In this document: piece after piece, positions 22,582 to 27,080 of the stretch
Numbering within the stretch: position 1 is the stretch's first letter
Layout: the number at the start of each line of letters is the position of its first letter
Assembly (NCBI GenBank): GCA_010671905.1
Contig: JAAHII010000001.1
Location: 2,604,001-2,668,000, forward strand
Direction: 5' to 3'
DNA: 64,000 bases
Origin: Leptolyngbya sp. SIOISBB
GTDB lineage: Bacteria > Cyanobacteriota > Cyanobacteriia > Phormidesmidales > Phormidesmidaceae
Notes under the pieces: generated by a model
What the model was told of the DNA's origin: nothing
Seen by the model: only the letters and a program-made list of their open reading frames with translations
Database searches by the model: none
Translations under genes and position numbers: made by a program

Positions 22582-22890
22582 TTAGCAGGCGACACAAGCT
22601 CCAACCGGTTCTACCACGAGGATGTTGGCTCGCCGACCCAACACTTTGACTTGCATACCTTCAATGAGAGTGAGAGAGCGATCGCAACAAGCCCGCCAAC
22701 GCACGCCTTGAAATCTCACCCGACCAAGTTGGCCTGGTTGAATAATCGTTTTAACCACAGCGGTGGCATCCGATGATGTCGGCCCATCCATCTGATCGCC
22801 GTCCGAAAAGCTGTTCGTTAAGGGATAAGTAGTCTCGAAGAAATCCGTTTCCTCCAAATCTGAACTGAACAAGGTTTTCAACAGGTTCAT
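22582..22890 (-). CDS. Small NfeD-like OB-fold protein
   Basis: 102 residues from the ATG at 22890, chosen because GGGAG lies 6 nt upstream; an earlier ATG at 22914 has no such site. The C-terminal 60 residues (QPGQLGRVRFQGVRWRACC, then LIEGMQVKVLGRRANILVVEP) match the soluble C-terminal OB domain of NfeD proteins, which are usually paired with stomatin-like or membrane protease partners; no such partner is adjacent. There is no transmembrane segment. Two Cys pairs (ACC and ACVAC) are unusual. Function unknown. Confidence 0.75.
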   Translation of the reverse strand: MNLLKTLFSSDLEETDFFETTYPLTNSFSDGDQMDGPTSSDATAVVKTIIQPGQLGRVRFQGVRWRACCDRSLTLIEGMQVKVLGRRANILVVEPVGACVAC

Positions 22891-23072
22891 GATGATCTCC
22901 CTTACGAGATTCATCTTCAGGGTAATGATTGTCCGAACGATCCGCCCATGCGTTTTGCAGCGAACTCACTATAGAAAAGAACACTGACTTTTCCTAGAAA
23001 CGCAAAAATCAGCGAAGCGCGAATTGGGTAATCGATTGCAGAAAGCTGCCCTAAAAGCCATCTCAGCCTTCC

Positions 23073-23231
23073 CTAAACCTGCACTCCTGTTGTTCCGGTA
23101 ATACCGCCAGGCGGCTCTCCGCCTACTGGAGGAATATAATCAGCCACCATCAGCTCAACAGGATAAAAGCCACAAGCTGCAATGATCAGAACACCCATGA
23201 CAACTAACCCATTCGGCAAACGCAAAAACAT
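23073..23231 (-). CDS. Small secreted peptide 2, paralogue of the upstream peptide
   Basis: I take the ATG at 23231 because GGAG sits 6 nt upstream (23241-23238); the product is 52 residues. It has a hydrophobic export signal (LVVMGVLIIAACGFYPVEL) with a likely cleavage after MVA, leaving a mature peptide of about 22 residues starting DYIPPVGGEPPGGITGTTG. It aligns with the neighbouring peptide over ADY-[IV]-PP-GGEPP-x-G-x-T-x-[TS]-G. The motif recalls the N-terminal Pro/Gly/Thr-rich stretch of cyanobacterial DUF928 proteins, which also tend to sit near CHASE2 genes, but no DUF928 domain follows here. Not a known family to me. Confidence 0.65.
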   Translation of the reverse strand: MFLRLPNGLVVMGVLIIAACGFYPVELMVADYIPPVGGEPPGGITGTTGVQV

Positions 23232-23304
23232 AGTTAACTCCATGGCAGTCAAGTAGTACAAAAATACCACACAAAAACAGAGTCTTGTTTTGCGAATTAT
23301 TAGC

Positions 23305-23469
23305 TCATAATCTCATTCCTGACGTAGACGTTCTCCCAGTCGGAGGTTCGCCTCCAGGAGGAACGTAGTCAGCAAGTGCCAGGTGACTAGCCTGAGCCCA
23401 GGCCGCGATCACAATTGTCAAGACAACTGCTGTACGAGCAAAAACACCAGAAACGTTTGATAAGGCCAT
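23305..23469 (-). CDS. Small secreted peptide 1 downstream of the CHASE2 kinase
   Basis: From the ATG at 23469 (AGGAA about 8 nt upstream) the product is 54 residues: a signal peptide (TAVVLTIVIAAWAQASHLALA) with a textbook ALA cleavage site and a mature peptide of 21 residues beginning DYVPPGGEPPTGRTSTSG. It lies 89 bp after the CHASE2 kinase stop on the same strand and 73 bp before its paralogue, so the four genes look like one transcription unit. Inferred role: secreted ligand, cue or envelope peptide linked to the kinase. There is no direct evidence of function. Confidence 0.65.
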   Translation of the reverse strand: MALSNVSGVFARTAVVLTIVIAAWAQASHLALADYVPPGGEPPTGRTSTSGMRL

Positions 23470-23558
23470 GATCCAAATTTCCTGTAGATGCGAAAGTGTA
23501 AAAAAGCCTAAAATCAGTGAAGTCATGCGGCCATCAAAGCCAATCCAAAACCCGCCAC

Positions 23559-25565
23559 TCAACTCGTGTTGAATGACGATGGCCAGCTCAGCTCACAAAC
23601 CGTCCCACCGCGAGCTTTAGAGAAACGAGCAAACTTACCGTGCAGCAACGTTTCTAAACGATAAAAAGACTGGGTTCCTTCGCCTACATGCGAAGACTGA
23701 ATACCTGGACCGTTATCCTCTATTTTGAGACGATAAAACTCGTCAATATGCTTCCCAGAAACTTGGATTCGGGTCGTGCCAACAGCATGTTTGCCAATAT
23801 TTTGCAGTGATTCTTCCAGAAACCAACACAACTGTCGTTTGATATCAAGGTTTAGGCGCTTACAGTTAAAGGGTTCAATGGTAACAGCTCGAACCTTCAC
23901 ACTTTCAAATCCCGGTAATTTTCGCTGTACAGCCAGACTATAAACCTCATACAACACTTCATGCATAGGATGAGTTAAATCTAGTTTGATATCACCTCCA
24001 GAATAGAAAAAATAGACGTCGCCAATGGCTTCTTGCCGTAATCTTTCACCCACTCCTCTAATTTCTTGATTGAGTGATTTTAGTTCCTGGATGACATAAT
24101 CTTGCTGCAGGTTCCCATCTTTAGTACTTCGCATGAGGCTAGACAGTCGCTGAAGAGGTCCGGCATGAATAGCGCTGAAGGCTCGCTCAATCGCTTTTCG
24201 TCTCTCTGCTTCTAACACTTTAGCTTCGATCAACTTAGCCTGTTGAGTCCTTAAAACCCGGCGCTGACTTCGATAGTTAAAACTTAAATAAACCATCCCT
24301 GATAACGGCATACAAACAGCCATCGGCGTCATTGGTAACCAAAGGCCAAATTGAGCAATACACCAATAGCAGAGGCCAAAACCCACAACAGTAAAACTCA
24401 GCAATGCAATCGCGCTTCTCGCCGATGATGCAAAAGAAAGACTCACAACGATACCCGTTAGTCCCGAAAGCATAATCAAGAATGTTTCCAGACTTGATGG
24501 CAAAGTATAAATTAAAGGACGATCGGCAATGACAGCATCAATAATTTGACTAGCGCTATGCGCTTCTAGCTCCGAGCCCACAATCCCGATTCGAGGAATA
24601 ATCGCGTCTTCCCCTGCTTCTGTTTGAATCAGACTAGAAGAAGCCGCGACCGATAGAAAACGAGGAAAGTCAGAGTCTGTTTTACCAATGATGACAACTT
24701 TATCTTTTAAGAAAGTAGGATCCAGAGAGCGATTAAAAAATTGAAAGGCTTCGACGATTTCAAAAGTATTAGACCCAGCACGAAAGTTCAGAAGGCTCTG
24801 AATATCATTGATATTAGCCTCTCGATGATAGCCACCACTATGAGCATTTAATAGCGGAACCTCGAAAAAGCCAGGATCAGACTCTTGTTGAAAAATCGGA
24901 ACTTGTGATTTACGTGGATGATTTTCTAAAGCGTAACCTTGTGAGGCCAAGTACGCCGTTGCCAGCTTAAATGAGAATGAAAACTTGAAAGGATTAGTAT
25001 CACCAATTTCTTCACTATCTGGCAAGTATGAGCCCAGAAAAGTACGACGAATCTGTCCATCTTGATCAATGGGTACATCGTTGATCCCAAACTGTTCTGC
25101 GACAATCGCTTCTGGAATATCGATGGGAGGATCAATTTTTCGCGGTGGGAGTGCCTTTTGCACGCCGATCAAATTGGCGTGAGTCTCAAACAGTTCAATT
25201 AACTGTTCGCGGCCAGGGTCATCACTCGTCTCATCGAGAAAAATATTTAGCCCCACTGCAGCCGGATCAGCTGCAAACACAATTTTGAGGAGCTGAGCAA
25301 TTTGTTGTTCCGTCAGTTCTTCACGGCCACCTTGATTTTGAACAATATTGAGATCGAACAAAATAATGACAATCTCTTCATCAGGCGGTTCCGGTAGTCG
25401 GTTCCTGAGGAGAAAATCGAGCGTGAGTAATTCCAAATTGGAGAACAGACCCAACCAGCGAGTCATAAGAATGCCAGCAATAATGGCATAGCCAATCGGC
25501 CATTTAGAGGACTTACGAGCCAGACGCTTGAGGCGGAGTGTGGGAGCTTTCAAGAATCGCAGCAT
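23559..25565 (-). CDS. CHASE2-domain sensor histidine kinase
   Basis: 668-residue inner-membrane kinase. One N-terminal helix (about 24-45) is followed by an extracytoplasmic CHASE2 domain (about 45-345, with LLTLDFLLRNRLPEPPDEEIV, GGYHREANINDIQSLLNFR and FLKDKVVIIGKTDSDFPRF), three closely spaced helices (about 352-425), a coiled segment, and a DhaK/NarX-like dimerisation helix with the probable phospho-acceptor His in IHAGPLQRLSSLM. The ATPase has an N box EESLQNIGKHA and G1 DNGPGI. It is encoded 14 bp after the response regulator and precedes two small secreted-peptide genes. The stimulus of CHASE2 is unknown in general. Confidence 0.9.
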   Translation of the reverse strand: MLRFLKAPTLRLKRLARKSSKWPIGYAIIAGILMTRWLGLFSNLELLTLDFLLRNRLPEPPDEEIVIILFDLNIVQNQGGREELTEQQIAQLLKIVFAADPAAVGLNIFLDETSDDPGREQLIELFETHANLIGVQKALPPRKIDPPIDIPEAIVAEQFGINDVPIDQDGQIRRTFLGSYLPDSEEIGDTNPFKFSFSFKLATAYLASQGYALENHPRKSQVPIFQQESDPGFFEVPLLNAHSGGYHREANINDIQSLLNFRAGSNTFEIVEAFQFFNRSLDPTFLKDKVVIIGKTDSDFPRFLSVAASSSLIQTEAGEDAIIPRIGIVGSELEAHSASQIIDAVIADRPLIYTLPSSLETFLIMLSGLTGIVVSLSFASSARSAIALLSFTVVGFGLCYWCIAQFGLWLPMTPMAVCMPLSGMVYLSFNYRSQRRVLRTQQAKLIEAKVLEAERRKAIERAFSAIHAGPLQRLSSLMRSTKDGNLQQDYVIQELKSLNQEIRGVGERLRQEAIGDVYFFYSGGDIKLDLTHPMHEVLYEVYSLAVQRKLPGFESVKVRAVTIEPFNCKRLNLDIKRQLCWFLEESLQNIGKHAVGTTRIQVSGKHIDEFYRLKIEDNGPGIQSSHVGEGTQSFYRLETLLHGKFARFSKARGGTVCELSWPSSFNTS

Positions 25566-25579
25566 CGTTATCCCCAGCG

Positions 25580-26272
25580 CTATTCAATGAGACCTTCATC
25601 ACGGGCTTTAAGACAAGTGACGATACGGAGATTGCGGCCTTCTTCTTTAGCGTCTTCGGGGTAGATGCCCAAGACATCGTAAATTTTGCTCCAGTAGTTG
25701 CGCACCATGCTTTCAGAAACGTGTAGGTGCTTGGAGATCGCCCGATCCTGATAACCTTCTTGACACGCTAAGTCCAGCGTCTCTAACCATTCCGGTTTAA
25801 GCTCTAACCCCGCTTTCAAACTGCGAATATCACGGGTGTGAGTATAACCTTGCAGCGCGGCCTTGAAGCGTTCAAAGGCTTTTTCGGTCGAGCTGTCCTT
25901 GCTGGTCACCGTAAAGCCGCCACGATGGTTATCAATGTCAGGAATGATGCGAACGAGGGCATCTGGATAAGAGGTGTGAACGGCAATGTTGAGACACGGA
26001 TGCGTCTGCATTAACTCTTTCAAAAACTGGATACCGGCCTCGGTCGAGGCACTCTCCCCAGCACTTTGAGGTAACTGCAAGTCTTGCACAATCAAACTGG
26101 GCTCTAATCGCTGAATGGCCTCTCGGGCCTCTTGTAACGTGGTCAGCGTTTCGAGCGTGATGTGATCGCCAAAGCGTTTAAGAATGCTGTGAATTCCCGC
26201 CAAGGTGGTGGGATGATCTTCGACCACAAAGATCGTATGGCGATCGCTGCCAGCAGTTGTGGAAGCAGTCAT
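25580..26272 (-). CDS. NarL/LuxR-type response regulator
   Basis: From the ATG at 26272 the product is 230 residues, the usual length; the frame extends upstream to further Met codons (26326) but those add a hydrophobic leader that does not belong to the family. The receiver domain has the acidic pair in FVVEDHPTT and the phospho-acceptor Asp in LIVQDLQLP; the C-terminus carries a LuxR-type helix-turn-helix (LDLACQEGYQDRAISKHLHV, SESMVRNYWSKIYDVLGI). It almost certainly pairs with the CHASE2 kinase encoded 14 bp downstream. Target genes cannot be read here; the two peptide genes behind the kinase are natural candidates. Confidence 0.88.
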   Translation of the reverse strand: MTASTTAGSDRHTIFVVEDHPTTLAGIHSILKRFGDHITLETLTTLQEAREAIQRLEPSLIVQDLQLPQSAGESASTEAGIQFLKELMQTHPCLNIAVHTSYPDALVRIIPDIDNHRGGFTVTSKDSSTEKAFERFKAALQGYTHTRDIRSLKAGLELKPEWLETLDLACQEGYQDRAISKHLHVSESMVRNYWSKIYDVLGIYPEDAKEEGRNLRIVTCLKARDEGLIE

Positions 26273-26576: not shown

Positions 26577-27080
26577 CTACTCCGCCATAGTGTCAGCAGC
26601 AGATTCATCCGTAGCGGGGTCTGGTGTATCACGATTTTCTGACGGAGCGTCTCCTGTTGTTGAGGTCCGAGAGATTTCGCGGAGATAAACATCACTAATG
26701 TCGATACCTTCTACCGCGATCGCTTCCACCTGCACGGTACCGACAACGCTAATCGTGGCCGACTCGGGTGGTGCTGACTCCGCACTGAGTACCCAGACAG
26801 TGCCACTATCGTCTTGTAGTTGATACAGTGCCCCAGCTAACAAGGGTGCCTGCTTAATCACAGTGCCTTTGATCTGTACCGTTTCGTCATTTTGCTCTGG
26901 GGTCAGAGTTTGAATCGCCACCGTTGGTCGTACGATCTGGGCAATTCCAGAGGGCAGATGCAACCCGGTGGACTCTTGTGGGACTGTGACATTAGCCGCC
27001 TGACTGCATCCACAAGCCACGATGACTAAAGTACTGCTCAGCCATCTATCCAACCTTAATTGCCGGGTGAGTTGTCGCAT
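26577..27080 (-). CDS. Lipoprotein with OB-fold domain
   Basis: 167 residues with a signal peptide and a lipobox-like VACGC, then an OB-fold-like module (VQIKGTVIKQAPLLAGALYQLQDDSGTVWVLS, quoted only as landmarks: IKGTVIKQAPLLAG and YQLQDDSGTVWVL) and an acidic Thr/Asp-rich tail. This arrangement matches small cyanobacterial periplasmic or outer-membrane lipoproteins with a nucleic-acid-binding-like OB fold of unknown role. The ATG at 27080 is followed by a basic n-region, as expected. It is transcribed away from folD. Confidence 0.7.
   Translation of the reverse strand: MRQLTRQLRLDRWLSSTLVIVACGCSQAANVTVPQESTGLHLPSGIAQIVRPTVAIQTLTPEQNDETVQIKGTVIKQAPLLAGALYQLQDDSGTVWVLSAESAPPESATISVVGTVQVEAIAVEGIDISDVYLREISRTSTTGDAPSENRDTPDPATDESAADTMAE

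Follow-up and report, generated by a model that had tools for sequence, protein, structure and literature searches.

Short exported peptides resembling DUF928 tails are candidate partners of one group of cyanobacterial CHASE2 histidine kinases

Directly downstream of a CHASE2 sensor histidine kinase in Leptolyngbya sp. SIOISBB, two tiny genes encode predicted secreted peptides that resemble the tail found at the N-terminus of DUF928 proteins. We think it probable that these peptides are exported DUF928-type tails without the globular domain, acting as the dedicated extracytoplasmic partner of this kinase group, and, as part of the same explanation and with the same confidence, that DUF928 proteins play this partner role for related kinase groups. 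The genes lie in one row within the stretch of 64,000 nucleotides that was analysed (the window), part of an 8.3 Mb genome:

25580..26272, minus strand: response regulator (PF00072, 36.5 bits) with a C-terminal helix-turn-helix-like part
23559..25565, minus strand: CHASE2 sensor histidine kinase, 668 aa (PF05226, 131.1 bits; cut-off 26.3)
23305..23469, minus strand: peptide 1 (54 aa), a signal peptide followed by DYVPPGGEPPTGRTSTSGMRL as mature part; has relatives and is under purifying selection
23073..23243, minus strand: peptide 2, 56 aa or, with the ATG at 23231 as start, 52 aa; a signal peptide followed by DYIPPVGGEPPGGITGTTGVQV as mature part; matched by peptide 1
22582..22914, minus strand: gene with an NfeD C-terminal domain (nfeD), following the peptide genes in the same row

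The regulator, kinase and two tiny genes that a first-pass annotation of this DNA had placed in one same-strand row are thus all found, on the minus strand, separated by 14 bases (regulator to kinase), 89 bases (kinase to peptide 1) and 61 or 73 bases (peptide 1 to peptide 2). A terminator scan of the row detected a single hairpin, which lies at the kinase stop and has a poor T run, and the number of terminator-like sites was at chance level (3 against a mean of 4.9); we infer that regulator, kinase and peptides are co-transcribed. The start of the response regulator was set at 26272 by alignment with relatives at six related loci, to which the protein is 83–93% identical; its HTH_23 score in the Pfam scan is 13.5 bits, under the cut-off of 24.6. 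The kinase has both a CHASE2 domain and a kinase core with His and ATPase parts, the HATPase_c match (22.4 bits) falling slightly below the Pfam cut-off of 26.4. His467, the putative phosphoacceptor, and Asn589 are invariant across 50 aligned rows. A fold search using the whole kinase listed kinase cores, the core of the model being similar to VraS and DesK (Z 14–15), and a PDB sequence search at E up to 1 had no protein named CHASE2 among the matches listed. The kinase of Halomicronema sp. CCY15110, a close relative, is 77% identical. Upstream of the regulator (26577-27080, minus strand) lies a gene whose 167-aa product begins like a lipoprotein, belongs to no Pfam family above cut-off and has relatives in six of the nine neighbourhoods compared. 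By eye, an element near CAAAACGCATTG can be seen upstream of nfeD at about 22945-22960 in the window, where it has at least one mismatch, and at L042, L043, L044, L046, L047 and L048.

The two peptides share the motif described in the first-pass annotation, DYVPP-GGEPPTGRTSTSG in one and DYIPPVGGEPPGGITGTTG in the other, the second with one residue inserted, and the 21 and 22 residues expected for the mature forms also hold, provided that cleavage occurs before DY. The [LV]-x-A cleavage sites given there were mistaken: the actual sites read ALA/DY and MVA/DY, and by its sequence the latter, with M at -3, would be a poor signal-peptidase site. More widely, a loose AxA-type pattern stands ahead of [YF]xP in 23 of 26 peptides. 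For peptide 2 the ATG at 23231 is more likely to be the start than that at 23243, given the GGAG a few bases upstream of it. Peptide 1 as query retrieved peptide 2 from its own genome (E 1.3e-4), and neither window peptide scores above cut-off in any Pfam or NCBIfam family.

Relatives of peptide 1 occur between kinase and nfeD in all five other genomes of the genus, as well as in G058 and G046, although in one of these genomes (G006) the contig ends ahead of nfeD. In each of the genus's six genomes, and in two further genera, a peptide adjoins the orthologous kinase, so that conservation near CHASE2 genes, on which the first-pass annotation had staked its proposal, is borne out. Copy number varies: G002, G003 and G004 have one peptide, G005 has two, and in G006 another copy stands at the start of a separate contig. 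No close orthologue of peptide 2 was found in these relatives, the second copies of G005 and G006 being different. Counting 22 residues for the mature part of peptide 1, which includes the A before DY, all 22 are identical between the window and G002 while 17 of 18.7 synonymous sites differ, and 20 of 22 are identical between the window and G003. The signal peptide changes freely (pN 0.37 and 0.47) and even the kinase, at 0.14, has a higher pN than the mature peptide, for which the small value computed from the identical window/G002 pair is an artefact of averaging over codon paths. Codon comparison thus shows that the mature part of peptide 1 is under strong purifying selection. At the G046 locus (L049) peptide and nfeD are present but the kinase lacks its CHASE2 half; loss of CHASE2 with retention of the peptide was considered, but an assembly gap is likely, because the sequence adjoining the absent half is a run of N.

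Beyond the genus, kinase homologues were collected from the order at E 1e-60 (31 of 63 genomes, 59 places) and from the class at E 1e-80 (50 of 242 genomes, with the best candidates, up to four per genome, scored). Together with the window and two plasmid records, 98 loci from these searches made up the 101 that were inspected. In the 1 kb that follows the kinase on its own strand, 48 loci carry a DUF928 gene, 29 a short exported peptide and 24 neither, so a partner is not always found in this slot; the last group includes one locus cut by a contig end (L117), one with only 637 bases visible (L094) and one with a DUF928 gene 2.3 kb downstream (L156). Of the 29 peptide loci, 22 have peptides like the window's (type A) and seven, all in one family, have longer ones (type B). 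All 37 DUF928-like proteins scanned match PF06051. A later set of 20 loci comprised 11 with DUF928 (one split), four with peptides (three by strict and one by loose standards) and five with neither. In the window's own genome eight of nine DUF928 genes adjoin CHASE2 genes, and the tail peptide was found in none of the seven other CHASE2 neighbourhoods without DUF928; this, like the 24 loci with neither gene, counts against the partner role. Two loci of this genome are unusual: at C1:84324-85305 (L233) a CHASE2 gene beside a DUF928 gene is seemingly split into two open frames, and at C1:3390535-3391107 (L235) lies the genome's sole DUF928 gene without an adjacent CHASE2 gene.

An explicit ORF pattern (a hydrophobic segment, [YF]xP and a polar tail of 15–45 residues, on the same strand) was composed after the peptides were known. 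It matched in 27 of the 52 kinase-downstream slots that lack DUF928, not counting one more slot that a contig end interrupts. The same pattern matched in none of the 52 antisense slots and in five of 1044 control windows, all five unlike the peptides; among the 20 later kinase loci three match and one more does so loosely.

A quick tree was built from 99 kinases, leaving out the partial L049 and the contig-end L117. On it the type-A label requires five changes against a mean of 18.5 when shuffled (none of 500 shuffles was as low), with L174 counted as empty in this test. One branch unites 17 of the 20 type-A rows with L174, where a peptide was found on inspection, and with L096, which sits on a long branch and lacks a peptide; L157 falls beside this branch with weak support (74). 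Two peptide rows of family f32 fall within the DUF928 kinases, so at least the f32 case is separate. A profile of the window's kinase group, searched against 388 genomes with the best three candidates of each considered, found 19 loci at or above 781 bits and the next at 660. In every one of these 19 the slot holds a peptide and no DUF928, but 16 of the 19 built the profile and the other three are close relatives, so these counts are not independent and the gap in bits arises partly by construction. The L096 gene, at 580 bits against at least 781 for members, is counted outside the group, and additional family searches, one in 6 genomes and one in 29, yielded no new members.

What connects the peptides to DUF928 is the segment that follows the signal peptide. 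Many DUF928 proteins have there a tail such as YTPPKDADAPSGSTGSSGVR, then GC; an alignment of 37 proteins shows no variation at the P of YxPP and almost none in R-G-C. The PF06051 model begins at residue 68 in the member shown, past YxPP, which may be why genes consisting of the tail only go unnamed. The clearest exchange is in family f32, where the gene order is kinase, X and a metallo-beta-lactamase-type gene (tRNase Z-like, that profile being slightly under cut-off). In L164 X is a 241-aa DUF928 protein with YQPPRDQKPPSGHSDSSGVRGV, in L168 it is a 55-aa peptide ending in YQPPADQKPPSGYSDSSGVR, and in L165 it is a 54-aa peptide with the same tail; no remnant of the DUF928 domain was found at L165 or L168. 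Neither the window peptides, nor 11 A1 members, nor the f32 peptides match PF06051, and with no remnant downstream we do not regard the peptides as DUF928 proteins.

The tail signature, [YF]xPP...R before Gly-Cys, is recognizable in the peptides as a set and in half of them singly. With an HMM of DUF928 tails, type-A peptides averaged 12.5 bits, compared with 4.3 for shuffled tails and 7.5 for tails shuffled with their first four residues kept, and none of 200 shuffles reached the type-A mean. The first-four-kept shuffle is the one that matters, as tails and peptides had both been chosen by the [YF]xP pattern; singly, 12 of 24 peptides pass it at 0.05, both window peptides included, and the other 12 are not above it. 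L165 and L168 score most clearly, with the same-family tails of L160 and L161 having been in the model. All six type-B peptides tested are above shuffles, yet their kinship to the DUF928 tail is, on sequence, less certain. Taken together, the relation to DUF928 is firm in f32 and probable in the window's genus; elsewhere it is uncertain, and there convergence in the same slot is possible. The 'stripped-down DUF928 partner' offered as one interpretation in the first-pass annotation gains support here from the shared slot, from the tail motif (above shuffles as a set, and in 12 of 24 singly) and from the f32 exchange. Decayed DUF928 genes were also sought, in the 3 kb downstream of 53 loci without DUF928 in the slot, and this origin was rejected: the one strong domain match was the distal gene of L156, and the remaining matches were weak ones on the peptide ORFs themselves (E 0.0027 to 0.81).

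We suggest that the peptides would be exported by Sec and cleaved by signal peptidase, and that the mature peptide of about 21 residues would act on the CHASE2 sensor in the periplasm, where it would set the kinase/phosphatase balance and thereby control the response regulator. That peptide and DUF928 replace each other in one slot suggests that what is relevant to the kinase is the tail. That the mature peptide acts directly on the sensor is the step that we prefer, if tentatively and at rather less than even confidence, and the role as CHASE2 ligand named in the first-pass annotation is plausible; its third reading, envelope cues, may also apply. A broader version, in which the tail is the ligand of the whole CHASE2 branch, tethered or cleavable in DUF928 proteins (to the Arg before Gly-Cys) and supplied as a pre-cut free peptide in the window's group, seems unlikely to us; it is in line with the peptide ends, 10 of 26 being exactly Arg and four more Arg plus one residue, and if true it would mean peptide signalling through CHASE2 kinases across cyanobacteria.

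Other roles for the peptides were weighed against that of dedicated partner. They could merely share the kinase operon without any sensing role, either as output of the system or as a component of the envelope: a downstream gene in a regulator's operon can be a target. We rate this a small but appreciable chance, because DUF928 and peptide exchange in the same slot across kinase groups, which points to a link with the sensor itself. Somewhat more doubtful is that the free tail acts in trans, competing for the site on which the DUF928 protein's own tail docks and so tuning other CHASE2-DUF928 pairs, of which the nine DUF928 proteins coded in the window's genome would offer targets. In the DUF928 model, a beta-rich domain followed by helices whose Foldseek matches include Ig-like proteins at low TM-scores, the YxPP segment (residues 51–60) is placed confidently, with a pLDDT of 91, the two blocks after it having 73 and 78, and the tail may for this reason dock on DUF928 rather than on CHASE2. 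Against the reading in trans, the peptide is tightly tied to one kinase group.

Release as a population signal read by the CHASE2 kinase we hold to be improbable. The peptides are short, exported and coded beside a sensor kinase, and two diverging copies are present in the window, in G005 and perhaps in G006; against this, ten ORFs scanned in the row include no peptide exporter gene, release would require passage through the outer membrane, and the mature part of peptide 1 is constant across species whereas pheromone peptides change fast. Finally, short ORFs that belong to no Pfam or NCBIfam family above cut-off might be chance frames or decayed DUF928 remnants, and to this we give almost no credence: chance ORFs were rejected on the purifying selection acting on the mature part and on the pattern counts in antisense slots (0/52) and control windows (5/1044), and beside the peptide ORFs a DUF928 remnant is absent.

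The nearest known arrangement is the cyanobacterial CHASE2/DUF928 (PF06051) pair, which shares the kinase type, the slot and the N-terminal tail after the signal peptide; the window peptides differ in having no globular domain, a tail of only about 20 residues and two copies. PMC5587647, the one paper in the literature searched in which DUF928 occurs, mentions for NOSP7 a cluster with genes for a CHASE2 sensor and a DUF928 protein. Peptide pheromone two-component systems of Gram-positive bacteria likewise have a gene for a short exported peptide beside that of the sensor kinase, but the window peptides have a Sec-type signal rather than a double-glycine leader, the sensor domain is another one and no exporter is coded in the row. 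As far as the available text of PMC5192318 describes it, a Burkholderia CHASE2 kinase operon also combines kinase, response regulator and exported partner; that partner is a LysM/FecR protein, whereas a Pfam scan of the window peptides matched neither domain. Sensing by CHASE2 cyclases of Sinorhizobium meliloti similarly needs another extracytoplasmic protein and a protein signal, namely outer-membrane NsrA and plant uL2 (PMC13001267, in part), yet these are cyclases with a beta-barrel and a host signal where the window has a kinase and a self-encoded peptide. The available portion of the xss exopolysaccharide paper (PMC8205485) contains no link to the system. In literature on CHASE2, DUF928 (PF06051), Sll1891, small secreted peptides with two-component systems and small proteins, with subscription journals mostly outside its scope, no such peptides were among the matches listed, in keeping with the first-pass annotation, which knew of no described system of this form.

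What CHASE2 domains recognize is still stated to be unknown in the accessible parts of PMC5192318 and PMC10581220, the exception being the cyclases that answer a plant protein via an outer-membrane partner (PMC13001267, likewise in part). A conserved exported peptide of about 20 residues that is coded beside one CHASE2 kinase group, and has its counterpart in the DUF928 neighbours of other groups, is small enough for direct synthesis and test, and the peptide, or the tail, is thus a concrete candidate for the partner or signal of a CHASE2 sensor; DUF928, a domain of unknown function, would gain its first testable role. Small proteins of a longer kind also follow CHASE2 kinases in one family of cyanobacteria (L159, L163, L177, L179, L180, L185 and L191, and also L245, L248 and L249), and these contain YxPP and PRRQTSFT-like stretches.
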